A stretch of 64,000 nucleotides of DNA, taken from positions 62,001-126,000 of the forward strand of contig JAFUBT010000002.1 in assembly GCA_017460065.1 (NCBI GenBank). The letters run 5' to 3'. The notes under the pieces are model-generated. The model searched no databases. It was not told where the DNA came from and was given only the letters and a program-made list of their open reading frames with translations. The stretch comes from Candidatus Saccharimonadota bacterium (GTDB taxonomy: Bacteria > Patescibacteriota > Saccharimonadia > Saccharimonadales > Saccharimonadaceae). Position 1 is the stretch's first letter, and each line of letters starts with the position of its first letter. Below are positions 16,076 through 39,614 of the stretch, piece by piece. Position numbers and translations under genes: made by a program.

Positions 16076-16114
16076 AATTTTAAATTCATAGATTACGCAG
16101 AATACTTTTACAGA

Positions 16115-16123
16115 TGATATAAT
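16115..16123 (+). promoter_or_regulatory. Extended -10 of metG
   Basis: TGATATAAT ends 7 bases before ATG 16131; the in-frame ATG at 16122 overlaps this element and is unlikely. Confidence 0.6.
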
Positions 16124-16130
16124 GTTTTTC

Positions 16131-17540: not shown

Positions 17541-17562
17541 TCTAGCCATAGTCACCAGCCAA

Positions 17563-19437: not shown

Positions 19438-19445
19438 TATTTCTT

Positions 19446-19454
19446 ATTATATCA
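19446..19454 (-). promoter_or_regulatory. Extended -10 of the LtaS-like gene
   Basis: TGATATAAT ends 8 bases before the GTG start at 19437. Confidence 0.6.
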
Positions 19455-19505
19455 TGGCAATAAAACCGCTTTATTCTTACGCTTGTCCTGCGAAGCGTTC
19501 CGATA

Positions 19506-19511
19506 GATAAT
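19506..19511 (+). promoter_or_regulatory. -10 of the comEC locus
   Basis: GATAAT ends 6 bases before ATG 19518; it marks the original comEC start, upstream of the first in-frame TGA. Confidence 0.45.
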
Positions 19512-20015
19512 CAGCGCATGATGAAACTACGTATTCATTCATCGGTGCTTAGTCTACTGCTTGCCTGAGCGGTGATTATCATGGCGCTATTAGCAAAATA
19601 TGCTCAGTTTGACCCACTCGGCTACCTATACCAGCAGAGAATAGCAACAGCTTATATTGGGCAAGACTTAACCATGACTGGTGTTGTGGCGAGCGACCCA
19701 AAGGTATCCACTAAAGAAACCGCCGTCACGCTGACGGACCTATCTCTTAATTATAGCACAAATAAGAATAAAAGTCAAGTTTATCTAAAACTGTCGGGAG
19801 TAGACTGACGACTCGAGCGCTCAGATTCCATCACTATCCAAGCCAAGGCCTTAGCTGGTTTTGGTGACTACGCGCTGTATTTCTGGCATCCTACAGTACT
19901 TGCGATTAATAAACCGGACCCACCCGATTTCGCACTGCGCATACGTAATCATTTTGCCGCAAATATTCGTCGGGTCGTCGACGATTCGGCCGCCGCATCA
20001 CTTGCACTTGGCTTT

Positions 20016-21591: not shown

Positions 21592-21695
21592 ATCATCTGT
21601 TATACTGTAGGCAGGGGAACTTAAGTTTTTACTGATTTTAATGTTTGATATGCACCTTCTCCTTTGAAAAATCTGTGCATAGGAAAGAGGAAAAT

Positions 21696-23213
21696 ATGGA
21701 GTTACTTCCAATCGCAATCGCCCTGGTGCTCGGCGCGGGTACTGGTATAGGTGGTTTTTATGCTTACAACAAGCGCAATGAAAAGGGTGGCAAAGACAAA
21801 GCCGATAGTATTATTCGCAAGGCCAAACACGAGGCTTCCGAAATCGTCTTAAATGCGAAGAAAGAAGCCGCTGAGACTAGCTCGCGTGCCCAGAAGGAAG
21901 AAAGCGACCGTCGCCGCGAATGGAAGAAAAACGAGGCACGCCTCATCGAGCGCGAAACAACTCTCGACAAAAAACTCGACCAACTCGACAAGCGCTCCGA
22001 AAACCTGCGCAAACAAGAAGCCGAAATCGAGGAGCTCAAAGACGAACTGCGTGCCGTCCGCGGCAAAGCACAAGAAAAGCTCGAAAAGATCGCTGGTCTG
22101 TCGAAGGCCGATGCCAAGACCAAGCTTATGCAGATGACCGAAAAAGACATCCGCAACGACCTTAAAGAGCTCATCGTCAAGGAGCAAAAAGCCTACAATG
22201 ACCACATCGACGAAACCGCCGAGGCCATGTTGCTGACTGCTATGGAGCGTATGTCGTCCGAGGTCACTGCCGACCGCACTGTCACGAGTCTCAAATTGCC
22301 AGACGACGACATGAAGGGCCGCATTATTGGTAAAGAGGGGCGCAATATCCAGGCCCTGCAACACGCCACGGGCGTTGATGTTTTGGTTGACGATACTCCA
22401 GGCATGGTTGTGCTGAGTAGCTTTGACCCCATCCGTCGCCAAGTAGCTCGTTATGCCTTGGAGCGCCTCATGAAGGACGGCCGCATTAATCCATCGAGCA
22501 TCGAAGACGCCGTCGCCAAAGCCGAACGAGAAATCGAAAAAGAAGTCGTTCGCGCCGGTGAGGACGCCGCACGCGAAGTCGGCGTTGTCGGTATTCCGAG
22601 CGAAATCCTTCACCTCTTGGGCGAGCTCAAGTTCCGCACTAGTTATGGCCAGAATGTGCTCTTGCATTCCGTCGAAATGGCGCATATTGCCGGTATGATT
22701 GCCGAAGAAATTGGCGCTGACGTCCGCACCGCTAAGACTGCCACTTTGCTGCACGATATGGGCAAGGCTGTCACGCATAAAATCGAAGGCAAACACGCCG
22801 ACATCGGCGCCGAACTCGCCAAGAAATACGGTATGGACGACGAGGTTGTGCACGCCATCGCAGCCCATCACAATGACGTCGAACCCACCACGCCAGAGGC
22901 CGTTATTGTCAAAATCGTCGACGCGATTTCCGCTGCTCGTCCAGGCGCCCGCAACGTTTCGGCCGAGAACTTTGCCGAGCGCATGCGTGCGCTCGAGAAC
23001 GTTGCTACCAGCTTCACCGGCATCGACAAGGCCTACGCCATTTCTGCTGGCCGCGAAATTCGTGTCATTGTCGAACCAAAACAAATCGACGACCTTTCCG
23101 CCCTCAAACTTGCGCGCGATATTGCCGACAAAATTGAGGCAACCATGCAATATCCGGGCGTGATTAAGGTGAACGTCATCCGCGAAACCCGCGCCATCGA
23201 ATACGCTAAATAG
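21696..23213 (+). CDS. rny: Ribonuclease Y
   Basis: 505-residue membrane-anchored endoribonuclease starting bulk mRNA decay. N-terminal TM (ELLPIAIALVLGAGTGIGGF), then a long charged coiled coil (residues about 30-190), KH domain with GRIIGKEGRNI, and HD domain with HSVEMAH and LLHDMGKAVTH. I chose ATG 21696 (MELLPIAIA), because AGGAAAGAGG lies 6-15 bases upstream and the TM should be at the N-terminus; the ATG at 21645 would add 17 unlike residues. Coding bias produces a long false open frame on the other strand. Confidence 0.95.
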   Translation: MELLPIAIALVLGAGTGIGGFYAYNKRNEKGGKDKADSIIRKAKHEASEIVLNAKKEAAETSSRAQKEESDRRREWKKNEARLIERETTLDKKLDQLDKRSENLRKQEAEIEELKDELRAVRGKAQEKLEKIAGLSKADAKTKLMQMTEKDIRNDLKELIVKEQKAYNDHIDETAEAMLLTAMERMSSEVTADRTVTSLKLPDDDMKGRIIGKEGRNIQALQHATGVDVLVDDTPGMVVLSSFDPIRRQVARYALERLMKDGRINPSSIEDAVAKAEREIEKEVVRAGEDAAREVGVVGIPSEILHLLGELKFRTSYGQNVLLHSVEMAHIAGMIAEEIGADVRTAKTATLLHDMGKAVTHKIEGKHADIGAELAKKYGMDDEVVHAIAAHHNDVEPTTPEAVIVKIVDAISAARPGARNVSAENFAERMRALENVATSFTGIDKAYAISAGREIRVIVEPKQIDDLSALKLARDIADKIEATMQYPGVIKVNVIRETRAIEYAK

Positions 23214-23255
23214 CCTTCAGGCGACCGCCTAATTTTTGGGTAGCCGTCCAATATA

Positions 23256-23264
23256 TGCTAGAAT
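23256..23264 (+). promoter_or_regulatory. Extended -10 of cassette 1
   Basis: TGCTAGAAT ends 6 bases before ATG 23271; leaderless. Matching elements precede cassettes 2 and 3. Confidence 0.6.
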
Positions 23265-23270
23265 ATAAGC

Positions 23271-24242
23271 ATGAGCGTGAATAACGCGGTACTTTCGGGC
23301 GGTGCAGATAACGGAGCGGCGAAACCCAAAATCACTTCGCCGAACATCAAGAGTGTTGCTGACGAGCGACTGGATAAAAGGCCCGATGCGGAGTCTCCGC
23401 GCAAAGCTAGTGAGACAGCTAAAATCGACGGTGTTCCCATTGCGGACGAGCACGTTAAATTCCGTGCACGGGATATTCGCCCCTTCAATTTAGGTAAGCT
23501 TTTTGTCAAGGTCGAAGGCTCCGAAGAGCGTCGTCGTGCCATCCAGCGCGAATTACATCAACAGCGCAAAGAGAGCATCAAAGTTCAAAAAGCCTCTGAG
23601 CGCAGCAAGAGGCAAAAAGCCCGCCGAGCTGCTCGCCAAAGTCGCCGCGACAAAATTGACGCCACTTTTTGGCGCGGCAAACGCAAATTTATCACCATCT
23701 CTATTCTCCTGCTCGTCATCATCATTGCTGTTACTGCCCCATTACTTATCGAACACGTCATCAAGCCGGCGCTTGACCGCTACCACTTTGACGCAACAGA
23801 GCAAGCCAAAACTCAAGCTACCAATCGCGCCGCAGACCATTACCAAACAGCACTTGATCATCTCGAAGAGCAGGAATACTCTGAGGAAGCGCTCGCCAAA
23901 GTATCGCAAGATTTTCGCAATCATCTGGCATCTGCCAGCGATATCGAAAAAGTTTATCTTGCTACGAGTTTCGCGCAAATTGTCTACGACGCCACAGGGA
24001 GCGCCAATCTTGCTATTGATATATTGTTAGAGTTTCCGCCTGCCGAATCTGTTTCGGACTGGGTGAAAATCGAATATTACGCTCCGCTCGGCGGTTATTA
24101 TGAGCGAATTGGGGATGAGGAAAAGGTCGCAGAATACAACAATGTAATCGATGGGCTCATGCCAAGGCTAGAGGCAAGACCCGTAGAGAGGAAAAGCGAC
24201 GATGGATCATCTGGCCAAGATTTTAGCGAAGAAGAGCAGTAA
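23271..24242 (+). CDS. Cassette 1 membrane protein: basic coiled coil, one TM, extracellular TPR-like domain
   Basis: 323 residues. Residues 1-75 are disordered. FVKVEGSEERRRAIQREL at about 79-96 is a motif shared with cassettes 2 and 3. Residues 95-140 form a basic helix, 144-166 a TM (FITISILLLVIIIAVTAPLL), and 185-300 paired helices of TPR type (AADHYQTALDHLEEQ; YERIGDEEKVAEYNN). With the basic side inside, the TPR-like part lies outside the cell. No known family is recognised. Its end overlaps the giant protein gene by 41 bases, so the two are co-translated and probably partners. Confidence 0.8.
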   Translation: MSVNNAVLSGGADNGAAKPKITSPNIKSVADERLDKRPDAESPRKASETAKIDGVPIADEHVKFRARDIRPFNLGKLFVKVEGSEERRRAIQRELHQQRKESIKVQKASERSKRQKARRAARQSRRDKIDATFWRGKRKFITISILLLVIIIAVTAPLLIEHVIKPALDRYHFDATEQAKTQATNRAADHYQTALDHLEEQEYSEEALAKVSQDFRNHLASASDIEKVYLATSFAQIVYDATGSANLAIDILLEFPPAESVSDWVKIEYYAPLGGYYERIGDEEKVAEYNNVIDGLMPRLEARPVERKSDDGSSGQDFSEEEQ

Positions 24243-27200
24243 GAGGTTCCTGGTTTTCTTGGTGCTGGCGGTCGCCGCCTTTTGTCTCTTTAACGCGACG
24301 CCAACTTATGCCGGTGGTTGGCAGGGTGGCGGCACCTTTGCGCCTGCTGTGGGTGGCGGTGGTGGGGGCTGCGATTCCTACAGTAACATGTACCGTATCG
24401 ACTGCGCCGGCTGGTCGTGGATTTATTACAAATACATCGGCAATCAATCCGCCAATGGAGAATCCGTGAAAGTCTATGACATTGCGGAACTGGATTGGGC
24501 CACTATGACGGAAGACTGGAACTCCAAATGGCACGTCACAATTGACAAGGAATGTGCCAAGGTAGGTGGTTTCTGGCATTTGGGCGGCAACGCGCAGGGT
24601 GACAGCAGTAACCACTTCGTCATTAACTCGCGATACGAATCGGTTTATTGGGTCAAAAAGGGTACATGGGGACACCGCGATACTTACAACTGGGGTTCAG
24701 TCAAGGGTATTCGTCAATACGAAAAAGTTCGTAGTGGCAATATCGACCATTACTTGCGTAACCGCAACCAAAGTACCTGGATTTATCGATCAACGCGTAC
24801 TGCCAAATACGAGACGGTATTGAACGAGTATCGCGAGTTCTACAAGTACTACCACAACACCACGACCAACGTTAGTGCCATTCCTGACAATATTTTCGCA
24901 TTTTGCTACAGCCCCGACATGGTAAAGAAGGAAGTTACTTATGCTGGCCAAAGCTCCATTGTGGATGGCAGCGATAATGGTGATGTTTCAAGCAAAGGCG
25001 GCCAATTCACTATCACTTTCCGTCACCAAATTCGCAAAGTCAGCTCGACTCCTTCCAATTACACCCCGGGCAGCAACTGGTTTACAAAGGTTTCTGGCGG
25101 TGGCAGTGTACGTTCTGGCACCTACAAGGGCACTTCCACTAGCTTTGTCAACGTGCTCGACCCAAACCAATATTTCAAAGTTACTGGCACCCTCGCTCCG
25201 GGTGAAAAGCGCAATGTTTGCCAGCAAATGACTTACAACAGTAAAGTCGTCAACGGTACTATCACCAGCTCTGATACCACCCGACAATGCCGTAACGTTT
25301 CGCGTGGCATCGCGACTTTCTCTGGCGATGTCGTGGGGCGCGTGGGCGATGTCGAGAACGACGCTTCGTCCGATGCGCCGGTTGAAATCAATACTCCAAC
25401 TGCCACGATTAGTTTTCGTCACCACATTACCCGTACCGGCGGTGACGATAAAGCTGGCGGCACGGCAGCTACGCCATGGTATACCGTGGTCAGCGGCAAG
25501 GATCAGTCGGGCGGTAACGTTTCGCCGATGGGGACCGCTCGTCCTCAATCTTCCGGACATAAAACTTCACTCCTAGCGCTCAACCAAGGCGAGGATGTCA
25601 TTAAATATGAAGACGAGACCTTTACGGTCAGCTTAGCTCCAGGCGAAACCATGACTTTCTGCCAAACTTTGCATTATGATTCTGTCGTTGACGCTACTGG
25701 CGGCAATCAGCATGCCTCGACCACGCGCTGTGTCCGCGTACATCGCGCAGGCCGAAAATGTGGTGACCTCGAATATGGCGTTGCGCAAGGCAAGAACTTC
25801 GGTCAACTCAGCGTGCGCAAACGCAACACCTGGCAGAGCACTGCGCCTTCCGCCCCAGAAGCTTTCAACATCAATCAGCGTGAAGCTAAGCTTGAAGTCT
25901 GGACTCGTCCGGGCGACTGGGTGGCCTTTCGGGCAGATATGTGTGAGGGAGCTGAACTGAGTAATCAGTATAATGAGATCAATCGGGACATCTCTTATAC
26001 GATTTCCGCATCCGAAGATCAATACAATGGCACCGCCAACCCCACTACTTGGGACAACGCTTCGTTGAAGGGACGCGCAAATATCGGCAAGGGTATTTTC
26101 CCCGGTAACACTTACGACTACGCTGCTCGCTCGCCTCAAGATGCATCGCAGAATTACGAAATTACGACCGACCACCTCGGCAAATCTTTCAGTCAACAAC
26201 TCAAGTGGACCGACCTTTGGATTAGTAACAGCCAAGTTGATGCCGTCCATCACCCCGGTGGCGCTACCTGGGAAAACACCGCCACCGCCACGGTCCACAC
26301 GCCATATAACTATGTCGCAACGCCCAGTGTGAGTATCGGTACTTCTCACGTCATGCCGGGCAGCTTTCTTGGTCGGCTAAGTACCGTCATTACTGCTGCG
26401 CCGCGGGTGAACCCGATTGTCAATGGCACAGAGGAATACGCTACTCGCACTAAGCGCAGTAAGTACCAAGTCATCAAATTCACGGTCAATAGGGAAGTTT
26501 CGCTAGAACAATTTAGTACCAACGTGTCTGGCGCCTATATCCATGATCCAACTGGCAATGCTCGTTTGACGACTGAATGGTGCATTAGTCGAATCCCCGC
26601 TGCGGCTGGGGTGTCTGGCTGCAACCAAGCCATTGAACCTAGCAATCTAGGCACGGCAGACGCTCGCCTCGAGGCGAACGGCTCAACCACTATTACTCGT
26701 CTTACGCCTTTCGTGTCCGACTCGGAACCGATTGGTAATAAAATTTGCTTCGTCGCTGCCGTCTGGCCAGCCGATAGTCACGATAGCCAAGGTGCAGAGC
26801 TTACTGACACTAGCGACCAATCTGTAGCTATGACCGAGAGTGGCAACTATTGGCGCATTTCTGAACCAAGCTGTGTGGTCGTAGCCAAAAAGCCAAATTT
26901 CCAGGTTCGCGCGTCCGGCGCCTTTGCCGAGCAAAACATCACTACGTCGATATCCAAGCGTGGTATACCAGGTTCACTGTTTGGCTCATGGGCGGACTAT
27001 GATTTAATGGCTGGCGGCTCGATTAACGGTATGGGTTCGGGCGCTTCACTTTGGGGCGCCAAGTCAGAGCCAATGAAGCGTGCGTGCTACTTCTCGGCAA
27101 TGAGTTTTACGAACGCTCAATGTAACACTAATAAGGTCGGTGAAATGCCGCTACATCCATATCTCGCCAGTAGCCCTAAGAGCACCTTTGATCGCATCAT

Positions 27201-27951
27201 GACGCGCTATACCTCAACCGATAATAGTAGCGCCTTAACTGGCGGCTCCAATGAAGCGTCCGCCGTAGAGCTCAAGCTTGAAGGCGCCTGCCAGTATGAT
27301 GCCGATAGCGGGGCATATACCGCACAAGGCGTGAGTGGCACGCCGAGCTTCCGCTGTCTAGAAAACGGCACTTACTACACCCGAGTGCTTGGCACGGCCA
27401 AAACCGCCAACGGCACGCGTACGGTCGTCGACGCCTCTGGACATCAAACTACAACCTACGTTGACCTTTGGACTTGGACAGACGGCCATCATCCAAGTAA
27501 TACTTATGTCATTTACGTTGATAGCACGCTTTATATCAAACAGAATTTCCGTTACGGTAGTCTAACCGATCGCGAAAATACGCAGTATCAAACTATCAAC
27601 GAGGTCCCGCAGACTATCTTCATCGCTGACGATATCAAAGTTGCAGCTAATGTCCAACATCTCGATGCCTGGCTAATCGCGAAGAACAGTATCGACACTT
27701 GCTATCCAGAAAATGGCGCCGGTGTCAGCGTCGCGAATTGTAACTCTCAATTAACGGTTACTGGTCCGGTTATTACCAAGAAACTATTCTTGAATCGTAC
27801 TTTTGGCGGCCAAGGCGGTACGCGAAATAACTCTCAACCAGGCGAAATCTTCAAACTCAGTCCGATGGTTTATCTCTGGAGCTATTCGCAATCACAGCGA
27901 TTCTCGCAGGCCATCACGACTTTCCAACGCGAAATCCCCACCCGCTACTAG
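24202..27951 (+). CDS. Giant secreted protein of cassette 1 (putative adhesin)
   Basis: 1,249 residues. Signal peptide 1-37 (FLVFLVLAVAAFCLF, cleavage near TYA). A Cys-containing N-terminal domain follows (Cys57, Cys68; GGFWHLGG; FAFCYSPD). Two beta-sandwich-like repeats each start FRHxI and end LAPGE...CQ..Y, then a segment with MCEGAELSNQY, a segment around KYQVIKFTV, the FGSWADYDLMAGGS domain, an extra Cys-bearing insert near 27250-27560, and a C-terminal beta-solenoid-like domain (HLDAWLIA, SIDTCYP, QLTVTGPVITK). It ends EIPTRY. No TM or sorting signal at the C-terminus, so retention must be through another component. An AGAGGAAAAG ribosome binding site precedes ATG. Function unknown; surface adhesin is inferred. 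Confidence 0.85.
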   Translation: MDHLAKILAKKSSKRFLVFLVLAVAAFCLFNATPTYAGGWQGGGTFAPAVGGGGGGCDSYSNMYRIDCAGWSWIYYKYIGNQSANGESVKVYDIAELDWATMTEDWNSKWHVTIDKECAKVGGFWHLGGNAQGDSSNHFVINSRYESVYWVKKGTWGHRDTYNWGSVKGIRQYEKVRSGNIDHYLRNRNQSTWIYRSTRTAKYETVLNEYREFYKYYHNTTTNVSAIPDNIFAFCYSPDMVKKEVTYAGQSSIVDGSDNGDVSSKGGQFTITFRHQIRKVSSTPSNYTPGSNWFTKVSGGGSVRSGTYKGTSTSFVNVLDPNQYFKVTGTLAPGEKRNVCQQMTYNSKVVNGTITSSDTTRQCRNVSRGIATFSGDVVGRVGDVENDASSDAPVEINTPTATISFRHHITRTGGDDKAGGTAATPWYTVVSGKDQSGGNVSPMGTARPQSSGHKTSLLALNQGEDVIKYEDETFTVSLAPGETMTFCQTLHYDSVVDATGGNQHASTTRCVRVHRAGRKCGDLEYGVAQGKNFGQLSVRKRNTWQSTAPSAPEAFNINQREAKLEVWTRPGDWVAFRADMCEGAELSNQYNEINRDISYTISASEDQYNGTANPTTWDNASLKGRANIGKGIFPGNTYDYAARSPQDASQNYEITTDHLGKSFSQQLKWTDLWISNSQVDAVHHPGGATWENTATATVHTPYNYVATPSVSIGTSHVMPGSFLGRLSTVITAAPRVNPIVNGTEEYATRTKRSKYQVIKFTVNREVSLEQFSTNVSGAYIHDPTGNARLTTEWCISRIPAAAGVSGCNQAIEPSNLGTADARLEANGSTTITRLTPFVSDSEPIGNKICFVAAVWPADSHDSQGAELTDTSDQSVAMTESGNYWRISEPSCVVVAKKPNFQVRASGAFAEQNITTSISKRGIPGSLFGSWADYDLMAGGSINGMGSGASLWGAKSEPMKRACYFSAMSFTNAQCNTNKVGEMPLHPYLASSPKSTFDRIMTRYTSTDNSSALTGGSNEASAVELKLEGACQYDADSGAYTAQGVSGTPSFRCLENGTYYTRVLGTAKTANGTRTVVDASGHQTTTYVDLWTWTDGHHPSNTYVIYVDSTLYIKQNFRYGSLTDRENTQYQTINEVPQTIFIADDIKVAANVQHLDAWLIAKNSIDTCYPENGAGVSVANCNSQLTVTGPVITKKLFLNRTFGGQGGTRNNSQPGEIFKLSPMVYLWSYSQSQRFSQAITTFQREIPTRY

Positions 27952-27991
27952 ACTAACCGCGTACGGTTTTACCAAAAAACATTTTTGCTTA

Positions 27992-28000
27992 TGCTAAAAT
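27992..28000 (+). promoter_or_regulatory. Extended -10 of cassette 2
   Basis: TGCTAAAAT ends 8 bases before ATG 28009. The region ttTGCTTATGCTAAAAT is nearly repeated before cassette 3. Confidence 0.65.
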
Positions 28001-28008
28001 GTTTTTAT

Positions 28009-28821
28009 ATGGGCAAAAACGATGTCGCTCCTGCCCGGTCCGCAGGAGAGCAAGAAGCTGGGTCGCAGCCAGGCAAAGAGCTGCATTTTGATTCCAAGAA
28101 AATCGACCAAAAACAAAAACCTGAATATTTCGTTAAGGTCGAAGGCGCCGAAGAGCGCAAAAAGGCCGTCGTCCGCAAACTCAAGGAGCAGAAGGAGCAA
28201 CTCGCCAAGCAGGCCAAGCAAAACAAACGCGACGCCAAACTCGAAGCCTTCAAGCAGGCTCACCGTAGTCGTTTTGCGAAGATTAAATCTGCTGTCGGCA
28301 ATTTCCTCAAAAAACACAAACTGCCACTACTAATTATTGCTGTTGCACTCCTAGTGGCCCTCGCCGGCTGGATGGTTTATCGGGCTCTAAACCCGCCGTT
28401 GACGGAAGATGAGCGGTCTGTCGTGGAGTCATTGGATCGCGTCTCTTCGCTGGACGCCGACTCGTTCCGTGAAGAATTAAGTTCTAGAGAAAAAGACGAG
28501 AACGGCTCTTTCCAGGCCGCACTTAGGTGGGGGGAGGAACAAGCTGAGTCGACGGACGATCAGCACACTAAATTTATCTATTATTATATTTTGACGAACC
28601 ATGTCTTAAGTGATGAAAACTATTACGATAAAGCACTCGAGTACGGGGGAAAGCTCGAGGCCCTCGCTCAGGATGACGGCGAAAAGTACCTGGCCTATAA
28701 CATGCTTGCGTCTACCTATAGGCAATTAAATAATCTTGATCAATATCGTCTATATCGCGATAAAGCAGCAGAATGCACGAGGAATGATGCATTTAAAATC
28801 GTCACTGAAGGAGTATTATGA
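28009..28821 (+). CDS. Cassette 2 membrane protein, TPR-like
   Basis: 270 residues, paralogue of the cassette 1 and 3 proteins. FVKVEGAEERKKAVVRKL at about 40-57, a Lys-rich coiled coil to about 95, TM at about 103-122 (LPLLIIAVALLVALAGWMVY) followed by RALNPPL, then an acidic helical-repeat domain (FQAALRWGEEQAES; YDKALEYGGKLEALAQDDGEKYLAY). I chose ATG 28009 over the in-frame ATG 27985, which lies before the -10. Its TGA overlaps the next ATG (ATGA). Confidence 0.82.
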   Translation: MGKNDVAPARSAGEQEAGSQPGKELHFDSKKIDQKQKPEYFVKVEGAEERKKAVVRKLKEQKEQLAKQAKQNKRDAKLEAFKQAHRSRFAKIKSAVGNFLKKHKLPLLIIAVALLVALAGWMVYRALNPPLTEDERSVVESLDRVSSLDADSFREELSSREKDENGSFQAALRWGEEQAESTDDQHTKFIYYYILTNHVLSDENYYDKALEYGGKLEALAQDDGEKYLAYNMLASTYRQLNNLDQYRLYRDKAAECTRNDAFKIVTEGVL

Positions 28822-31800
28822 CAATTAAGAAACGAACGGCACGACTCACCGTCCTTATTTTGATATTATCTTTAGGTCTGTTTGTACCTAGCGGAGTAAG
28901 CGCCGCCAGTGGCGGGCAGAGCACATCAGCGAACTCTGGCGCTTGTGGCACCTCATTCTATAGAGGCAAATTCCGCTATATGGTACCGCCCGAGTTTCCG
29001 CTGGGTACATGCGAGGACGCCGGTATATCGTTCGCTTATTTCGAGTACGACGTAGACTATGAAGTGGATATAAGCATGGGGCCAACAAACGACAAGGGGG
29101 GTGGCACTGTGATAATCAAGGGCTCCGAATGTCTTGAGACGGGAGGCTTTTATCACCTAGGGTATACGGATATCAAGGACGATCTTTGGTGGTATTCCGG
29201 AGACGGCACGGAAGTGCATATTAATAGCACGAGTAACAATTACCCATTAAGTATAGGCAACCCAAATATGCGAGGATCTATCACGTACTCCGGCAACTGG
29301 GATTCGGCCCTTGGTATGGGGCATGGAATTCAGGAGATATACGTAGATGGCAAGCTAGTGGCCCATCTTGTTGGTTTTGTAGATAAAAGCACGGCTTCTC
29401 AACATTATGAGCAGTGGCGGAAGTATTCTGGCTGGCCTGACGAGTGGGAAGGCGGGCTCAATTCCTTCTGTTGGGGAGAAGGTCTAAGCAATACGACTTT
29501 CTGGGGCAGTATAGACGGTTATGTTAATGGTTCTTACTTGAGCTCTGGCTCAACCAAGACGATACATGATAATTCCGCTCTCGTGAGATTCAACCATACA
29601 ATTCACCGAAACAACGATGGCGAGGACAAGAGTATAGGTACGAAATACTCTGTCGGGGGAGATCTTCGCACACGCTCGGAATCCAAAGTTTCATTATATA
29701 AAGGCAGTCAGGCTAGCCCTCACATGACTAGTAACGATGAAGTTTATGTATCGCCTGGACAAAGTAAAACATTGCAGCAGACCCTGTACTATGACGCTAC
29801 GGCCAACTCAAAAACTTCATGGGATAGCACGAGCGAAGGTCCCTACACCATGACTATCTACCGCCCGTCCACTGGAGATAATGCCATCAACGGTTGGACG
29901 AAGGCTCGAGTCAATAACAAAGACACCGCCAGTGGGGACAAAGTTACGGTCGGTAGTGACGGTAAGTATACTATTAGTTTTCAACACACCCTCCGCCGTG
30001 GCAGTGACGCCGCTGGTGGCACGGTAGACGCTAACTGGTCTACGTCCGTATATAGCAAAGATAGCGCTGGCCGCACCGTCAATCCAGGCGGCACTGCCCG
30101 CCGTGGCACCCAAACCCTCTCCCAAAACCAAGAAGCCAACGTTGTCTCGTACAACACCGAAACCTTCAGCGGCACACTCCTGCCAGGTGAAACCCGTACA
30201 TTCTGCCAAACCCTAACCTATGATCATAATATTTCTTACCCCAACAACAAGTCTCGTAGCGCTAGCGAGTATTGCGTGAATGTGTATCGGGAACCTGCTG
30301 AGTATGACAATAAATGTAAGATAGAAAAACAGCCAGCGACGTTTGGCGTCAACAGTGGCGAGAATATCGGCCGACTGACTCTGCGAAAACGCAACGATTC
30401 TCCGTTGGATACCCAACCGCAAAACACCGGCGATCATAGCGTCAAGGTTTACGCTAAGCCATCAGACTGGTTCTCCTTCTCCGAAACAATGTGCGAGGGC
30501 GCCGAGATGGCCAATCAATATCACGAAACGAACAAGCCGATTGAGTATCGTATTGAGGCGACCAGAAATAGCTCTCCCAGCAACGCAATTATGCGCGGCA
30601 GTATTGCTGCAACTACGCCAACCAGATGGACAAACGTAGGCATAAAAAGTCGCAACTTTGCTGGCGTCAAAGACATCTGGAACGGTAGCGATTATCAAGA
30701 AAGTAATACATCACCAGCAAGTGGTCGACATGACGTCGCAGAAGACGACGCTGGTAAAACCTTCAAGCAAATCCTCACGTGGACTGACCTCTGGATGACG
30801 AACGGCAAAGAGGTGGCGGCACATAATGGCAGCAGCAAAGCTACCGCAACCGGCATCGTCGAAGTGCCGTATAACTACATTAACATCCCACACGTTGACC
30901 GAGATAACGGCATCCCCGTTTCGCCGGGCAAGGACCTTGAAATTACGGTCACTATCGACACTGAACCGCGCAAAAATACACCCGTTAACGGCGATGAACC
31001 GTATAAAACTAAGACCAAGGAGTCAGCATGGCAGATTATTTCCTATACTGTCGATGACCGCAATAAGGCCAGCGACGAGGTGACGACGACAAATGAGTAT
31101 TATAATGGCGCCGGCGACCTAGATCTCAGCCAGAGCAGTGTCTGTGGTGCATGGATGCAGGGCGGCAACTCCAATACTTGCAAGCAAGCCAGCAAAGGCT
31201 CTGGCATTGTCGGCGAGAATCCGATTGGCCAAGATGGCCAACGCACCAACATCTATGTTCCAGATGGTACCCCTGTCGGTACGAAGGTCTGCGCTGTCGC
31301 CGCTGTCTGGCCGGCCGATAGCCACAACAGCAATGGCGCTACGGCAGACATCACTAGCGAAGAGATGGAACAGGCCGCACTCGACGAGGGGGAGGCCTCG
31401 TCCGGCACGCAGCGCGCTTGGAAGATTTCTCAGCCTACCTGCGTTACGGTCGCAAAACGCCCAACTATCCAAGTTAGGATGAGCGGCGCTTATGCCGAAA
31501 ACCGGATTGACACGAGTACGACAAGTCGCGGCCCATCCAGCGACACTACCGCAATGCGGCGCTACGGTTCGTGGGCAGACTATGATTTGGTCTCTGGCGA
31601 CGAAACGCTCGGCATGGCTTCCGGCGCAGCGTTTTGGGGTGGCTTGCCATTATCGGACATATCGCTGTCGGATATGACGGTCTGTAAGGTTTCGTCCCTG
31701 ACCTTTACGAATAACGAGTGTGCTAATCACAGCGGCAATCGTGTGGTCGGTAATTTTGGCAGTCAGAACAAGAGCCTCGCCTCTTACCCCGGCACCGCCT

Positions 31801-32375
31801 ACGAGCGTTTGCGTAGCCGCTACGCCATTGAAGCTAACGAATATACTGCCAATGACTTAGGCGGCTTCACGGTCGTTGCAAATAATCTCGCGTCAGAAGA
31901 TTCCTCTTATGGCGCAAAGGTCATTTACCATGAAGGCACACTTAACATCACTGGTGATATCCGTTACGAAGACAAAGCTTACGCTAACATTGACGAACTT
32001 CCCCAAGCAATCATCATTGCTGACACAATTCGAATCGCCCCCAACGTTACCCATCTTGACGCCTGGCTAGTGGCGGACAGTATTGACACTTGCTATGTCG
32101 CACCTGGCACGCGCGCAGTGGAATATCCGGGGCCTAGTGATAACGAAGTCAGCGTCCGCACTTGCCCCCATCAACTTACCGTTACCGGCCCAGTCATTAC
32201 TAAGCAACTGCAGCTCAACCGCACCTATGGCGGCGACGGTGGTCAGCAGAGTAATTCCGAGGCGGCCGAAATCTTCAAACTTAGCCCTATCACTTATCTC
32301 TGGAGCTATGCCGAAACCCAGCGCTATTCGCAGGCGGTGACTACGTACCAGCGCGAACTGCCGACGCGCTACTAA
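28818..32375 (+). CDS. Giant secreted protein of cassette 2 (putative adhesin)
   Basis: 1,185 residues, paralogue of the other two giants. Signal peptide 1-30 (LTVLILILSLGLFVPSGVSA). N-terminal Cys domain (ACGTSFYRGK; GGFYHLGYT; SFCWGEG), two beta repeats (RFNHTIHRNN; FQHTLRRGSDAAGGTV to LLPGETRTFCQTL), MCEGAEMANQY, the ESAWQIISYTV segment, YGSWADYDLVSGDE, and the C-terminal HLDAWLVADSIDTC/QLTVTGPVITK domain ending ELPTRY. It lacks the extra insert found in copies 1 and 3. GAAGGAG precedes ATG. The first 330 codons use ATA, GGG, AGA and CTA more freely than neighbouring genes. Confidence 0.85.
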   Translation: MTIKKRTARLTVLILILSLGLFVPSGVSAASGGQSTSANSGACGTSFYRGKFRYMVPPEFPLGTCEDAGISFAYFEYDVDYEVDISMGPTNDKGGGTVIIKGSECLETGGFYHLGYTDIKDDLWWYSGDGTEVHINSTSNNYPLSIGNPNMRGSITYSGNWDSALGMGHGIQEIYVDGKLVAHLVGFVDKSTASQHYEQWRKYSGWPDEWEGGLNSFCWGEGLSNTTFWGSIDGYVNGSYLSSGSTKTIHDNSALVRFNHTIHRNNDGEDKSIGTKYSVGGDLRTRSESKVSLYKGSQASPHMTSNDEVYVSPGQSKTLQQTLYYDATANSKTSWDSTSEGPYTMTIYRPSTGDNAINGWTKARVNNKDTASGDKVTVGSDGKYTISFQHTLRRGSDAAGGTVDANWSTSVYSKDSAGRTVNPGGTARRGTQTLSQNQEANVVSYNTETFSGTLLPGETRTFCQTLTYDHNISYPNNKSRSASEYCVNVYREPAEYDNKCKIEKQPATFGVNSGENIGRLTLRKRNDSPLDTQPQNTGDHSVKVYAKPSDWFSFSETMCEGAEMANQYHETNKPIEYRIEATRNSSPSNAIMRGSIAATTPTRWTNVGIKSRNFAGVKDIWNGSDYQESNTSPASGRHDVAEDDAGKTFKQILTWTDLWMTNGKEVAAHNGSSKATATGIVEVPYNYINIPHVDRDNGIPVSPGKDLEITVTIDTEPRKNTPVNGDEPYKTKTKESAWQIISYTVDDRNKASDEVTTTNEYYNGAGDLDLSQSSVCGAWMQGGNSNTCKQASKGSGIVGENPIGQDGQRTNIYVPDGTPVGTKVCAVAAVWPADSHNSNGATADITSEEMEQAALDEGEASSGTQRAWKISQPTCVTVAKRPTIQVRMSGAYAENRIDTSTTSRGPSSDTTAMRRYGSWADYDLVSGDETLGMASGAAFWGGLPLSDISLSDMTVCKVSSLTFTNNECANHSGNRVVGNFGSQNKSLASYPGTAYERLRSRYAIEANEYTANDLGGFTVVANNLASEDSSYGAKVIYHEGTLNITGDIRYEDKAYANIDELPQAIIIADTIRIAPNVTHLDAWLVADSIDTCYVAPGTRAVEYPGPSDNEVSVRTCPHQLTVTGPVITKQLQLNRTYGGDGGQQSNSEAAEIFKLSPITYLWSYAETQRYSQAVTTYQRELPTRY

Positions 32376-32423
32376 ACTACATCTCGCCCCACCAGCAAAA
32401 AATATAAAAACATTTTTAGCTTA

Positions 32424-32432
32424 TGCTAAAAT
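32424..32432 (+). promoter_or_regulatory. Extended -10 of cassette 3
   Basis: TGCTAAAAT ends 10 bases before ATG 32443. Confidence 0.65.
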
Positions 32433-32442
32433 AAAACCATAT

Positions 32443-33261
32443 ATGGGTACAAACGATGTCGACCCTGCTTGGTCCGCAGGGGAGAAAACAGCTAGGCCTG
32501 TGTCTGATAATAATGTAGTTTTTGACTCCAAAAATATCGACAGCCGGCCAAAGACCGAATTTTTCGTCAACGTTGAAGGCGCCGATGAACGCAAAAAAGA
32601 GGTCGTCCGTCGCCTCAAAGAGCAGAAACAGGAACTAGCCAAACAGGCCCGCCAAGACAAGCGCAACGCCAAGCTTGCCGCCTTCGAGCAAGCCCGCCAG
32701 ACCCGTCGCGCCAAAATCAAAAACACCCTCAAGCATTTCTTCAAAAAAGCCAAAATCCCACTCATCGCCCTTTGTGCGACCGTTTTTGTGGCCCTCGCCG
32801 GCTGGATAGTTTACCGGGCTTTGAACCCACCCATGTCAGAAGAGATAAAGATGGGCGTAGAGTCGATTAAGCGGCAACCCGAGCTAAATGCCGATTTTTC
32901 TGCGGAACTTGACGCTAGAGCCCATGCCGATGATGGCTCATTAGAAGACGCGATAAAATGGGGCGAAGAACAAATCGCAAACGCGGAAGATGACCATGTG
33001 AAGTTTATTTACTATAAGGAATTAGCTTATTTCATCGTCCATGAGGATGATTATAAAGATAAAGCAATCGAATACGCCCACAAATTAGAGGAGCTGGCGC
33101 AAGATGACGGCGAGAGGTATCTCGCGTATATGACTCTTTCGACAATTTATGGTTTCGCGGGAGACCATGAGAAATCTGACGAATATTACGATAAGCTCGA
33201 AGAGGTAAAAGCACCTATGGAGTACGCAATAGAGGAGGAGATAAAGAATGGCGCGCAGTAG
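32443..33261 (+). CDS. Cassette 3 membrane protein, TPR-like
   Basis: 272 residues, closest to the cassette 2 protein: FVNVEGADERKKEVVRRL, basic helix (KQELAKQARQDKRNAKL), TM at about 104-124 (IPLIALCATVFVALAGWIVY) then RALNPPM, and an acidic helical-repeat domain (LEDAIKWGEEQIANAEDD; AIEYAHKLEELAQDDGERYLAY). Predicted topology is N-in, C-out. It overlaps the giant gene by 14 bases. Specific role unknown; pairing with its own giant protein in each cassette suggests a dedicated chaperone or anchor. Confidence 0.82.
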   Translation: MGTNDVDPAWSAGEKTARPVSDNNVVFDSKNIDSRPKTEFFVNVEGADERKKEVVRRLKEQKQELAKQARQDKRNAKLAAFEQARQTRRAKIKNTLKHFFKKAKIPLIALCATVFVALAGWIVYRALNPPMSEEIKMGVESIKRQPELNADFSAELDARAHADDGSLEDAIKWGEEQIANAEDDHVKFIYYKELAYFIVHEDDYKDKAIEYAHKLEELAQDDGERYLAYMTLSTIYGFAGDHEKSDEYYDKLEEVKAPMEYAIEEEIKNGAQ

Positions 33262-36200
33262 AGTAAATGCAGCAACGGTGTTTGCGGTCTTATTTTTGGC
33301 AACTACTGCATGTTTGTTCATATTTGGTAATAACGTTAGCGCCGAATCTGGGAATAATAATACGGTTACTCATGGTTGTGGCTTGCCGAACTATTACCGC
33401 GGCAAATTACCCGACAGTTTAGTGACGTGCATGGCGGTCGGTGCGTCGTTCGCATATTTTCAGTACGACACGGATCAGGATTATACCATTGACATGGGGC
33501 CGGTAACTCCTGCGACTGATTTGGGGAAGGATTTGATTAAAGGATGCGCAAAATATGGTGGCTTTATGCACCTTGGCGTTGTTGATGGCAAGCGGGGTAC
33601 ATGGCGGAAAGGCAACATCCGCGTCGATTATGACGGCAATATTAGTTTGGGCAATTTTGACGTAAGTTCAATCGAAGTTTACGATAGCAGCGCAACTCCT
33701 GGGGCGCAAAACGTGTATGTGAGTGGTGTCAGCAATCCTATTGCTCATCTAGTGGACTTTGTTGACAAGGACGAAGCAAGGCGACGCTATGATCAATGGT
33801 TGCAAGTTGCTGACGATAAAACTGATTATTGGGCGAGAGGCTCGCTAGGATGGTTTTGTTGGAGCCCTACCATAGACAAACCACCCGAAGGTACTCTCTA
33901 TAGCAAAACAGAAGGATTCGTCAACGGTCAAAAGAAGAGTAACAACTCTACTACGACCATTAACGCCAATAGTGCAAACATTAAGTTTGAACATACAATC
34001 TACCGCAACAACGACGGCATTGATGGCTATGTTTCGGAATGGCACGTGGTCGTCGGAAGTGATTGGAAAAAAGACGAAAGCTATGTAACTATAGAAAAAG
34101 GTGGCTCGCGCATGGTCCATATGGACTCGCCGCGTACAGTCGATATCTTACCAGGCCAAACTCGCTCGTTCTACCAGCAACTCGGCTATGATACTAAAGC
34201 CAGTGGCGACGATTCCAACACGCCGGCTGCTGCGCCAAAGTTCACTCTCGATATTGTGCGCCCTAAGGCCGACTCCATCAGCGGCCGCGTGCGCGCAAAA
34301 GTCAATAACGGCGAAGTAGGTAACAACTCGACGACGGTCATCAACTCAAGTGACGGTAGCTTTACGATTAGCTTCCAGCACGAACTGCAACGTGGCAACG
34401 ATGCTGCTGGTGGCACGGTCGATGTGCCATGGTCGACTTCTGTATCCAGTAATGATAGCGCTGGCAGAAAAGTCAACCCGGGTGGTACTGCGAGAAGTGG
34501 CACAAAAACTCTTGGCAATAATAGCGGTTGGCAAAGCGCCGTCTCCTTCAACACGGAAACTTTTAGCGGCACCTTATTGCCAGGTGAGACCAAGACCTTT
34601 TGCCAAAACCTCACTTATGCAAGCGTCATAGACTACGCTGGCGGCAATAGAAATTCCAGCACCGGGAACTATTGCGTGAGTGTGCGCCGCGCAGACGGAG
34701 CGCTGGAGGCTTGCGGAGAAAATAAGAAGTATGGCGTCAATGAAGGGCACAACTGGGGCGAGATGGCTGTATCTACTAATAGCAACATAACCCTATTCAC
34801 TCGAGATACCGAGGCTTTTGATACTGGCGAAAGAATAGCCGAAGTCTGGTCGAAGCCAGGCAATGACTTCACTTTCGAAGAAACGATGTGTGAGGGCGCT
34901 GAACTCCCCAACCAGTACCGCGACTATGGCAAAAGTATCACCTACAAAATTGAGGCTAACCGACCCGGCAGCGAAATCATGAAAGGTAACCTCGCTTATT
35001 CGACGCCAATGTCATGGAACAACGCCAACGTCAGATACTGGTCTAGTGCGGGTAGAGATATCTGGGGTGGTACAAGCTATACCGCCAATAACAATTCGCC
35101 TCGCTCCGGCACCCACAAAGTCACGAATGATTATCTTGGTAAAACCCTAGAGCAAAAACTCACCTGGACCGATCTCTGGATTGGGAATGGGGGAGTGATT
35201 GACTCGGCGCATAGCGGCAGCAATAACGCCACGGCCATTGGTCGCATCCATGTACCGTATAACTATAAAACCACTACTAGAACCGAAAACCCTCTAAATG
35301 ACCCATACTCGCCCGGTACCCCAAGCCGCACAGTTAAAACTTTTATTTCCATTGAGGAGCGCGTCAATAAACCAGCCAATGGTGTTACACCATATGCAAC
35401 CAAGAGCAAAGAAACCAAGTGGCAAGTTGTGTCGTTCCGAATCGACGGGAATACAGACGCCGATAGAGTCCAGCTCAAAAACGATGGCTATTACGGCGGT
35501 GGCATCATTAACGGAGACACGGATTTAGCTGGCGTTTGTACTGGTTGGATGGGTGGCTCGCCATTTGCATGTCAGAAAATTGATAGCGGTACAGATATTT
35601 TTGATCCTGGTGAGATTGAATTAGAATCTAGTATGTCAATCCCAGATAATGTTCCTATCGGCACTAAAATCTGTACTGTTGCCGCTGTCTGGCCGTCTGA
35701 TAGCCATAATTATGATGGGGATATTATTGATGAAAGCCAAGAAAAGAATGGCATGTCGGACGAAGAAGATTTATCAAGTCGTCGCTGGAAGATTTCCCAG
35801 CCCACTTGCGCTAGCGTTGCAAAACGGCCAACTATCCAAGTACGGATGAGCGGTGCTTATGCTCAGAACTCTATCAATACCAGCACCTCCGACCGCATTT
35901 TGTTTGGCACGAACGAGCGGCATCGCTATGGCTCATGGGCTGATTATGATTTAGTCTCTGGCAAAGAAGAGACGCTCGGTATGGCTTCCGGCGCAATGCT
36001 CTGGGGCGGTATCTACCCAATCCCGAATGAAAACCTAAAATATTGCCGCGTTTCGCCAATGACTTTCACTAATGATAGGTGCTACGCTTCCGAAGGGCGC
36101 ATGGTCGGCAAGTTCGGTGTCGATAAGTCTCTCGGCTCAAGCCCAGAGCGCCTTTACCAGCAAATTATTGACCGGTATACGGGAGGGGGGCCGACGGTCA

Positions 36201-36910
36201 GCGTTCGTTCAGGAGAAGTGCACGTAATCAAGAACACTGGCGCCTGTAGATATAATGAAACCACAGGAAAGTATACGGCAGTGGATGGGTATGGGCGCAC
36301 AGGGAATACCAGTTTCGTCTGTTTAGATAATGGCACATATTATACGGAAATAAATGGAGATGCAAAAACTGATGGCGGCGGAACGACATGGGGGAGCACG
36401 GATGGGGTGAACGCTAATACAACCTATTCGACCCTAGTATCTGGTACGCTGTATATCGACAAGAATTTTCGCACCGGAGATGTTAGCTTGTCTGACCCCA
36501 CGAAAGCAAAATATTCTTCTATCGCTGAAATACCCCAACGCATCTTCATCGCCAAAAACATCAAGATTGCCCCTAATGTTACGCATCTCGACGCCTGGTT
36601 AATCGCCGATTCCATCGATACCTGTTATCCAGGCAGCGGCGCCAAGGTCAGCGTCAGCAACTGTAACGCACAGTTGACTGTTACTGGTCCGGTCATTGCG
36701 AAAAATATTGCTCTGAACCGCACTTATGGCGGCGGGCGCACATCTTATACGGGCAGCCAGCTCAATCGAGCCTTCTTCCAGAACGAGAATTCCGAGGCGG
36801 CTGAAGTATTCAAGTTGAGCCCAACTGTCTATCTCTGGAGCTACGCGCAAATGCAGCGCTATTCGCAGGCAGTCATCACCTATCAACGAGAACTCCCCGC
36901 CCGCTACTAA
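33248..36910 (+). CDS. Giant secreted protein of cassette 3 (putative adhesin)
   Basis: 1,220 residues. Signal peptide 1-31 (VFAVLFLATTACLFIFG, then NNVSAES). N-terminal Cys domain (HGCGLPNYYRGK; YGGFMHLGV; GWFCWSPT), two beta repeats (FEHTIYRNNDGIDG; FQHELQRGNDAAGGTV to LLPGETKTFCQNL), MCEGAELPNQYRD, ETKWQVVSFRI, YGSWADYDLVSGKE, the Cys-bearing insert (TGACRYNETTGKYTA; FVCLDNGTYYT) and the HLDAWLIADSIDTC/QLTVTGPVIAK C-terminal domain ending ELPARY. GAGGAGGAG precedes ATG. It is followed after 50 bases by the prepilin operon, the strongest contextual hint that these proteins are pilus-linked. Confidence 0.85.
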   Translation: MARSRVNAATVFAVLFLATTACLFIFGNNVSAESGNNNTVTHGCGLPNYYRGKLPDSLVTCMAVGASFAYFQYDTDQDYTIDMGPVTPATDLGKDLIKGCAKYGGFMHLGVVDGKRGTWRKGNIRVDYDGNISLGNFDVSSIEVYDSSATPGAQNVYVSGVSNPIAHLVDFVDKDEARRRYDQWLQVADDKTDYWARGSLGWFCWSPTIDKPPEGTLYSKTEGFVNGQKKSNNSTTTINANSANIKFEHTIYRNNDGIDGYVSEWHVVVGSDWKKDESYVTIEKGGSRMVHMDSPRTVDILPGQTRSFYQQLGYDTKASGDDSNTPAAAPKFTLDIVRPKADSISGRVRAKVNNGEVGNNSTTVINSSDGSFTISFQHELQRGNDAAGGTVDVPWSTSVSSNDSAGRKVNPGGTARSGTKTLGNNSGWQSAVSFNTETFSGTLLPGETKTFCQNLTYASVIDYAGGNRNSSTGNYCVSVRRADGALEACGENKKYGVNEGHNWGEMAVSTNSNITLFTRDTEAFDTGERIAEVWSKPGNDFTFEETMCEGAELPNQYRDYGKSITYKIEANRPGSEIMKGNLAYSTPMSWNNANVRYWSSAGRDIWGGTSYTANNNSPRSGTHKVTNDYLGKTLEQKLTWTDLWIGNGGVIDSAHSGSNNATAIGRIHVPYNYKTTTRTENPLNDPYSPGTPSRTVKTFISIEERVNKPANGVTPYATKSKETKWQVVSFRIDGNTDADRVQLKNDGYYGGGIINGDTDLAGVCTGWMGGSPFACQKIDSGTDIFDPGEIELESSMSIPDNVPIGTKICTVAAVWPSDSHNYDGDIIDESQEKNGMSDEEDLSSRRWKISQPTCASVAKRPTIQVRMSGAYAQNSINTSTSDRILFGTNERHRYGSWADYDLVSGKEETLGMASGAMLWGGIYPIPNENLKYCRVSPMTFTNDRCYASEGRMVGKFGVDKSLGSSPERLYQQIIDRYTGGGPTVSVRSGEVHVIKNTGACRYNETTGKYTAVDGYGRTGNTSFVCLDNGTYYTEINGDAKTDGGGTTWGSTDGVNANTTYSTLVSGTLYIDKNFRTGDVSLSDPTKAKYSSIAEIPQRIFIAKNIKIAPNVTHLDAWLIADSIDTCYPGSGAKVSVSNCNAQLTVTGPVIAKNIALNRTYGGGRTSYTGSQLNRAFFQNENSEAAEVFKLSPTVYLWSYAQMQRYSQAVITYQRELPARY

Positions 36911-36948
36911 AAGCGTTAGTAAAATAGACAAAAACCAAAAAGCTCATG

Positions 36949-36954
36949 TATAAT
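36949..36954 (+). promoter_or_regulatory. -10 of the minor-pilin operon
   Basis: TATAAT ends 6 bases before ATG 36961; it also excludes the in-frame ATG at 36946. Confidence 0.6.
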
Positions 36955-36960
36955 ATACGT

Positions 36961-37869
36961 ATGGTTAAAAGAGGTGGTGCAAAGAGCACTTCTGGCTTCA
37001 CGATTATTGAGGTCATGCTTTCGCTGGCCATTAGTGGTATGGTTTTGGTTGGGGCACTAATCGGAGTAAGCTCGACCATTTCGCGTCAACGCTACCGCGA
37101 TGTTGTCGAAAACACCGCTTCGCTTCTTCGTACGCAGTACGATTTGGTTAGCCGTATTCAGATCGAGAAGCGCAACGATGATGACGATTGTGACAAGATT
37201 ATGCAAAACATCTCTTTCGAGCCTAACGGCAAACTTGGTCGTGGCCGTAGTAACTGCAGTGTTTACGGCGTAGTTGTCACGCTAGGGCTCAATGGCGGTA
37301 CGCGTATGCAGGTCAACAATCTAATCGGCATGGACTATGATGCGTATCGTAAAACCCTGGAGGACCCCGACGAAGTAATTAAGGACATGAGTGAGTTAGA
37401 CCTGTTCAAGGCACTAAGCGTAACTAATGTCTTGAATGACGGCAGCGTCTGCCGCGTCACTAACCTTCTGTACGACGAGACCTACAAATGGGATGCCACC
37501 CTAGAGACCACAGTCAATAACCAATCGGCTGAATATATTATTATGATTGCGCGTTCGCCACGTAGTGGTGCGATTCATACATATACGTATAATTATTCTG
37601 CGGAAGTTGGGCTAGATTCGTTTGATTATACTGATATTGCCGGCGGCCCATGTTCGTCAACTCAAGGCGGCGTCAGGAAGGCTACGCTCAAGGACGCCTT
37701 TGACAATAACAAATTTGTTATGAACGAAGACGTCAAGCTCTGTATCAATTCCGCCGACATGTTGGCTACTTACGGCAAGCGCCGCATGATTAAAATCACC
37801 GCTAATGGCTACAATTCTTCGGCCGTCGCATTAATGAATATGGATGATAGCGGGAACGAATGTCAATGA
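36961..37869 (+). CDS. Minor prepilin, PulG/PilE-like, first gene of the operon
   Basis: 302 residues. Class III signal with basic MVKRGGAKSTSG, cleavage SG|FTIIEV (Glu +5) and a hydrophobic helix to about residue 36 (SLAISGMVLVGALIGV). The body of about 260 residues is long for a pilin and has several Cys (DDCDK, SNCS, VCRV, PCSS, LCINS, ECQ), so it is probably disulfide-stabilised and extracellular. Its stop overlaps the next gene. Confidence 0.85.
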   Translation: MVKRGGAKSTSGFTIIEVMLSLAISGMVLVGALIGVSSTISRQRYRDVVENTASLLRTQYDLVSRIQIEKRNDDDDCDKIMQNISFEPNGKLGRGRSNCSVYGVVVTLGLNGGTRMQVNNLIGMDYDAYRKTLEDPDEVIKDMSELDLFKALSVTNVLNDGSVCRVTNLLYDETYKWDATLETTVNNQSAEYIIMIARSPRSGAIHTYTYNYSAEVGLDSFDYTDIAGGPCSSTQGGVRKATLKDAFDNNKFVMNEDVKLCINSADMLATYGKRRMIKITANGYNSSAVALMNMDDSGNECQ

Positions 37870-38744
37870 GTAAGGTCGAGAAGCAACATTTCAAGCATGG
37901 CGACACCTTGGTAGAGGTGATGTTGGCGCTGACTATTTTTGCTTCGCTCGCCGTGATGGCCATTCATACTATGAATTCTGGCATGTATCAAGCTGAGCGC
38001 GCTATCGAGATCACTATGGCGCGAAATGAGATTGACTCTCAAGCCGAAGCACTCCGTTTTATTCAGAATAATTATGTCGCCGAACGTGAGCACCAGTCAG
38101 ACCGCCAGCAATATTCTGCACTCTGGAACGCAATCATCAAGAACTATGTTATCGAAGCTAGTGATTTTCGCAGCGCCGACTATGATATTAACGCCAGTAA
38201 TATTCGCACCTGTGACGACGCCTACAACGCCCAAATGGGCGGCGTCAGTCGTGACAATACCACCAAAAAAGCTCTCGCCATCAATACTCGCTTGCTCGAA
38301 CCGAGCAGCGGATTATATGACCCAAATACTGTTAAGCCAGATCCGAGTAACCCCTATAGCAACCTTCTGAGCGAAATCCTCATCGATAAAAAAGCCGTTA
38401 ATAGTAACGATTCTCAATATATTCTCCGACCAGCCCCACTGTACCCACGCGGCGTCTACTCTTTGTTAAGCCTGGGGCACATTAACGACGCGGTCGGCTC
38501 CGCGACTGATGCGACGAATTCTGACAACACCTTAGCCGAGGATTATATCTACCGTAAGGCGGAATCTATTGAAGGCATCTGGATAATTGCCGTCAAGGGC
38601 GATAACTCCAATATTGTCCGCTCTGACCGCAATGCCGAATACTATGATTTCTATATCCGCAGTTGTTGGCAAGCCGTCGGCCTTAGCGCTCCTTCGACTT
38701 TGACCACCATCGTGCGTCTATATAACCCGGAGGTAATCGACTAA
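37860..38744 (+). CDS. Minor prepilin, PilV-like, second gene
   Basis: 294 residues with signal KHG|DTLVEVMLALTIF (Gly -1, Glu +5, Asp instead of the usual aromatic at +1) and a helix into ASLAVMAIHTM. ATG 37866 (MSKVEK) is an equally good start. The remainder is a globular extracellular domain with two Cys (RTCDDA; RSCWQAV). It overlaps genes on both sides by 1-10 bases. Confidence 0.83.
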   Translation: MSMSKVEKQHFKHGDTLVEVMLALTIFASLAVMAIHTMNSGMYQAERAIEITMARNEIDSQAEALRFIQNNYVAEREHQSDRQQYSALWNAIIKNYVIEASDFRSADYDINASNIRTCDDAYNAQMGGVSRDNTTKKALAINTRLLEPSSGLYDPNTVKPDPSNPYSNLLSEILIDKKAVNSNDSQYILRPAPLYPRGVYSLLSLGHINDAVGSATDATNSDNTLAEDYIYRKAESIEGIWIIAVKGDNSNIVRSDRNAEYYDFYIRSCWQAVGLSAPSTLTTIVRLYNPEVID

Positions 38745-39598: not shown

Positions 39599-39614
39599 AA
39601 CTAAAGGAGATAAC

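Follow-up and report, generated by a model that had tools for sequence, protein, structure and literature searches.

Three tandem gene pairs of a saccharibacterial genome encode candidate type IV pilus tip adhesins and their putative membrane partners

The closest described counterparts of the proteins reported here belong to type IV pili. PilY1 has a Sec signal, its N-terminus is variable and its C-terminus conserved, and together with four minor pilins it forms a tip complex with a priming function; the same source describes three alternative PilY1 clusters served by one pilus machine in Myxococcus xanthus (PMC7541494). The Tad (Kil) pili of M. xanthus are described with paralogous KilLMN tip complexes on one pilus, their efficiency differing by prey (PMC12075869). 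Within the Saccharibacteria, type IV pilins are reported to mediate host binding in Nanosynbacter lyticus (PMC12206443) and most type IV pilus genes are reported as essential in S. epibionticum (PMC10633639), and a tip-adhesin role is therefore relevant in this group. PilX2 of N. lyticus TM7x is described as needed for host binding and proposed to be PilY1-like, with PilX2 and PilX1 (T4P-2 and T4P-1) presented as pilin-like lollipops bearing jelly-roll or RCC1 propeller domains (PMC12206443). Saccharibacterial type IV pili are reported as essential or host-binding (PMC10633639, PMC12206443), yet no PilY1 homologue was detected here: the PilY1 family (PF05567) gave no match over cut-off in 61 genomes, a search whose sensitivity is uncalibrated since the control genomes likewise had no match.

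The window, by which we mean the whole stretch of 64,000 nucleotides analysed, comes from a gut Candidatus Saccharimonadota genome of 652,520 bases in 9 contigs, about 89% complete. Three consecutive pairs of a small and a giant gene were observed in the ORF listing at 23271-36910, bounded by the RNase Y gene (end 23213) and a run of pilin genes (from 36946). The earlier note had described three units in series with overlapping gene pairs, and the ORF coordinates bear this out, with reading frames overlapping by 41 nt in cassette 1, 4 nt in cassette 2 and 14 nt in cassette 3. We read the giants as alternative type IV pilus tip adhesins in the job of PilY1, each with a membrane partner that assists its assembly, and give this reading a probability of about 0.6; that the giants belong to the type IV pilus system is very probable. 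The features are as follows.

21645-23213, forward strand: RNase Y gene, at the upstream edge of the main locus, a position conserved in the genus
23254-23264, forward strand: extended -10 promoter-like element of cassette 1, TATGCTAGAAT, 6 nt ahead of the start codon
23271-24242, forward strand: small1, 323 aa; basic cytoplasmic tail with VEGSEERR, one transmembrane (TM) segment at about 23691-23747, extracytoplasmic TPR-like helical domain
24202-27951, forward strand: giant1, 1249 aa; signal peptide, then a variable head at the N-terminus, an Ig-like middle and the conserved C-terminal module
27229-27948, forward strand: conserved C-terminal module of giant1, its last 240 aa
27990-28000, forward strand: extended -10 element of cassette 2, TATGCTAAAAT
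28009-28821, forward strand: small2; VEGAEERK, one TM segment; the ATG at 28009 is favoured by homologues, the ORF listing beginning at the TTG at 27985
28818-32375, forward strand: giant2, 1185 aa
31653-32372, forward strand: conserved C-terminal module of giant2
32422-32432, forward strand: extended -10 element of cassette 3, TATGCTAAAAT
32443-33261, forward strand: small3, 272 aa; VEGADERK, one TM segment, a TPR_8 match below cut-off
33248-36910, forward strand: giant3, 1220 aa
36188-36907, forward strand: conserved C-terminal module of giant3
36946-37869, forward strand: minor pilin 1, with the prepilin motif GFTIIEVMLSLAI and a PF07963 match over cut-off
37860-38744, forward strand: minor pilin 2; GDTLVEVMLALTI, PF07963 below cut-off in one search and over it in another
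38744-39598, forward strand: minor pilin 3; GFTIIETTLATMF recognised by inspection, Pfam giving no pilin match
39579-41078, forward strand: PilX-like protein; its hydrophobic N-terminal helix lacks Glu5, the conserved 'SALAGVEDAK' helix is present, and neither Pfam nor NCBIfam gave a match

The minor-pilin genes (36946-41078), overlooked in the earlier note, lie directly downstream of giant3 in the same orientation. One complete type IVa pilus set was observed in this genome, on contig 8, with pilT, pilC, the major pilin and pilD at 47-51 kb and pilB, pilO, pilN and pilM at 71-77 kb; the pil genes other than the ATPases and the pilin were assigned by sequence and gene order. A second PilB-like ATPase (T2SSE, 310 bits) is encoded within the window at 1351-2961 on the reverse strand, apart from the contig 8 machinery.

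Cleavable Sec-type signal peptides were identified by inspection in all three giants. The noted absence of a C-terminal anchor from the giants was confirmed by the hydropathy profile and the LPxTG scan: outside the signal the maximum 19-residue hydropathy was 0.9-1.0, with no further hydrophobic segment, and no LPxTG motif of the kind expected in sortase-anchored surface proteins was observed. They likewise carry Sec-type signals in place of the N_methyl domain (PF07963) of type IV pilins, for which no match was found. Their relation as paralogues of 1,185-1,249 residues was also confirmed, as giant2 aligns to residues 13-978 of giant3 at 47% and giant1 to residues 345-1220 of giant3 at 45%, with the heads divergent between paralogues. 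The common PTRY/PARY end was recovered as well and belongs to a longer conserved C-terminus, 'RAEIFxLxxxxYLWSYxQMxRYSQAxTTYxRELPxRY'.

An AlphaFold2 model of giant2, built from mature residues (28905-32372), had a mean pLDDT of 65.6 and included a confident chain of Ig-like domains at mature residues of about 190-550, a poorly predicted head (mostly below 50) and a C-terminal beta module with a helix at its end. Searches of the giants against Pfam and NCBIfam yielded no family over cut-off, including the PilY1 beta-propeller domain PF05567, and nothing significant was found in PDB sequence profile searches or by sequence comparison with known adhesin families. One PF05567 match within giant1 lay far below the cut-off of 28.1 bits (E 0.009, 13 bits) and was discounted, and family assignment from Foldseek/VIA-align was rejected on the grounds that the matches were only generic Ig or beta-sandwich folds (PrgB, RbmA, transglutaminase, antigen I/II).

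All three small proteins have the VEG motif, the single TM segment and the acidic outer domain that had been noted for them. The motifs (general form VEG-x-[ED]ER[RK]) lie in the cytoplasmic tail, which is basic before the TM segment (net +11 to +18), and the outer domain that follows carries a net charge of -13 to -22. The predicted model of small1 contains high-confidence helical hairpins in the outer domain, and its structural matches were mostly TPR domains, with Z of about 10-11 over 100-120 residues, values that helical repeats may also attain through their common arrangement or by chance. Pfam TPR matches in the window were all below cut-off, none was observed across our alignment of small proteins, and no Pfam or NCBIfam family passed cut-off in the three small proteins; one distant homologue, an upstream gene among the loci outside the genus, had a TPR_2 match of 29.6 bits against a cut-off of 27. 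Some aligned small proteins (e.g. L076, L078:269-1135, L091, L094 and L096) share the cytoplasmic tail and have an outer domain apparently unrelated to the TPR-like type.

The giants resemble PilY1 in several respects: they are large, with a type I signal peptide, a variable N-terminal and a conserved C-terminal part; their gene neighbours include three minor pilins with Glu5 and one PilX-like protein that lacks it; their genes are linked to minor pilins or pil machinery; and several alternative copies are present per machine, as described for M. xanthus (PMC7541494). Unlike PilY1, they gave no PF05567 beta-propeller match; their middle is Ig-like, their C-terminal module is of another kind and finishes with a helix, and they are coupled to a small TM partner, with three giants to one minor-pilin set. 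By this analogy the giants would resemble PilY1 in role and not by family, and the statement of the earlier note that no described system has this architecture was too strong, since minor pilins with a large Sec-secreted PilY1 are a known arrangement.

As described, PilX2 and PilX1 of TM7x resemble the giants as pilus proteins of Saccharibacteria that carry additional C-terminal domains and lack a predicted PilD signal (PMC12206443); the giants differ in having Sec signals and in lying beside a separate PilX-like gene. The Kil tips likewise come as paralogues on one pilus, but belong to a Tad system and are described as minor pilins with added domains, with no separate TPR membrane partner in that account (PMC12075869). 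The small-giant unit was not found described in the literature searched, in the accessible portions of those sources, although the TM7x and S. epibionticum authors may have named it otherwise. New here would be the tip-protein family unrelated to PilY1, its membrane partner and the modular exchange of heads.

Homologues of the giants were observed in most of the 37 genus genomes searched (the window's own included), and the named relatives are Candidatus Saccharibacteria from sheep, buffalo or yak gut or rumen and from horse faeces. The order comEC-tsaE-tsaB-rny-[small-giant]1-3-pil1-pil2-pil3-pilX is recurrent, with the part from rny to pilX observed in about 20 genus loci. Also kept across the genus within the main locus is a 600-aa protein without a Pfam match (42954-44756, forward strand), which follows the RNase H and CYTH genes, and a large ORF of 1206 aa with a GTG start and a Cna_B domain (45612-49232, forward strand) is probably a further surface protein.

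We found a small gene adjoining each of the 45 complete genus giants tested, 43 upstream and two downstream. Forty of the 43 were recovered by automatic calling and three had been masked by over-extension of a start site; giants that seemed to lack a small gene were explained by such gene-calling overlaps (three) or by a small gene directly downstream (two). The search for the two-gene unit in other Saccharibacteria, which the earlier note had called for, thus found the small and giant genes never apart in these 45, and the unit is conserved. The two reversed cassettes, with the giant followed by its matching small gene, are at 15127-19860 of locus L079 and 10773-15479 of locus L080.

Outside the genus, the giant lies immediately before pilM of a pilMNOBTC-pilA-pilD cluster in 16 inspected loci, about 13 of which have a single-TM gene just upstream of the giant, and in other families of the order a single-copy unit usually heads this operon. 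A profile of the giant C-terminal module matched 199 of 247 genomes of the order (165 of the 191 good genomes), and the small-protein profile found genes at the expected position in several order genomes, in a noisy search. No relatives were found in a scan of viral contigs with the giant C-terminal profile, or in a first scan of genome contigs with giant3 alone as query.

These distributions bear on a different explanation, under which the giants are free-standing surface adhesins held at the cell by the small protein, and the pilus genes are mere neighbours with a common role in host attachment. The TM segment of the small protein could serve as such a tether, the Ig-like chains resemble PrgB and antigen I/II, and in many genomes (several at the least) additional cassettes lie elsewhere, far from the minor pilins, so some giants may act apart from a tip. 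Nevertheless, in other families the single-copy unit usually heads the pil operon, and the C-terminal module is conserved far beyond what would be expected of a mere surface stalk; both argue against this explanation, which we consider unlikely. The earlier suggestion of triplicated host-attachment factors for an epibiont therefore stands in altered form, the giants being very probably parts of the pilus, given the minor pilins here and the head of the pil operon elsewhere, and not free-standing.

The pairing of each small protein with its own giant was examined by dividing each unit into four segments (cytoplasmic tail and outer domain of the small protein, head and C-terminus of the giant) and comparing pairwise local-alignment similarities. 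The outer domain tracked the giant head most closely (Pearson 0.88-0.93 across windows within roughly the first 400 residues), followed by the giant middle (0.77-0.81), its own cytoplasmic tail (0.60) and the giant C-terminus (0.41-0.53); clustering agreed with the tracking of head by outer domain, with the caveat that the segments differ in conservation. Nearest-neighbour and quartet tests of co-inheritance did not separate head from C-terminus, and conflict-triplet and partial-correlation tests were therefore adopted. With C-terminus, tail and middle controlled for, outer domain and head had a partial correlation of 0.84; the value for outer domain with C-terminus was 0.08 and with tail 0.10. 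Where head and C-terminus conflicted, the outer domain sided with the head in 341 triplets and with the C-terminus in 12, whereas the tail sided with the C-terminus in 249 and with the head in 63, the triplets in both counts not being independent. The covarying segment of the giant comprises its N-terminal 300-400 residues, approximately.

These results suggest, as far as sequence covariation can, that the small protein is a dedicated partner of its own giant, as had been proposed, the specific link being between its outer domain and the giant N-terminal region; we regard cognate pairing as probable. Outer domain and head are adjacent in the DNA, and common recombination tracts could yield part of the covariation. 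Taken further, this becomes an explanation with no cognate recognition at all, in which one tract across the gene junction swaps both segments passively; it would fit the contiguity of the two segments in 43 of 45 units and the quartet and nearest-neighbour tests that did not discriminate. It is rather improbable, as the small protein's own tail, which adjoins the outer domain just as closely, is decoupled from it (the partial correlation of 0.10 above). Moreover, in the reversed L079 and L080 cassettes the giant heads are of one class and the small gene immediately downstream, beside the giant C-terminus, still has the matching outer domain, which indicates that head and outer domain are held matched beyond mere linkage, although the two loci probably represent one evolutionary event.

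A working scheme for partner-assisted tip adhesins would begin with Sec export of the giant, the N-terminal head emerging first. The membrane-held small protein, its outer domain (TPR-like or of another type) outside, would then bind the head of its own giant and either retain it at the membrane or fold it. The giant C-terminal module and helix (RAEIF...YLWSY...TTYxRELPxRY) would dock on the common minor pilins (pil1-3 and the PilX-like protein), and the resulting tip complex would prime the polymerisation in which the one PilB/C/M/N/O machine assembles the one major pilin; the extended pilus would then display the Ig-like stalk and the variable head to host cells. In such a scheme the conserved giant C-terminus and small-protein tail, which share one history, would face the common pilus machinery, and the variable head and outer domain, which share another, would face each other, with the head also facing the host. 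The tip location, adhesion, host specificity, direct contacts and exact role of the partner are what we infer here. Use of the pilus machine as a type II secretion-like pump, with the giants as released exoproteins and the small proteins as secretion adaptors, would suit the Sec signals, the lack of an anchor and the pseudopilin-like neighbouring genes, but is very improbable given the retraction ATPase, the pilus-type major pilin and the appearance of the giants as modular binding proteins, in which no enzyme domain was detected.

More tentatively, and at slightly less than even odds, the giants may form an undescribed class of tip adhesin that replaces PilY1, with partner-assembled heads, in which head and partner domain pass between genomes together as a single module, a replaceable cartridge for host recognition. 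A giant that is widely conserved at the head of the pil operon, has a variable head and has been amplified in species of the gut and rumen offers a concrete tip-receptor candidate, and for host-bacterium recognition by Saccharibacteria and other Patescibacteria the covariation names two segments as candidates for binding.

The three cassettes were also said to share the same type of promoter. The element TATGCTARAAT was observed with zero mismatches at 23254, 27990 and 32422, 6-10 nt ahead of each small-gene ATG, and identity to the consensus at all three cassettes supports that part of the claim. It is not peculiar to them, since 14 sites with at most one mismatch were found in the window against 2.3 expected; these include 1311-1321 (reverse strand), 5410-5420 (forward strand), the three cassette sites and nine one-mismatch sites. 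We consider the element a general promoter element here, and a cassette-specific promoter was ruled out. The spacing of 6-10 nt to the ATG at the cassettes suggests leaderless or nearly leaderless mRNAs in this genome.
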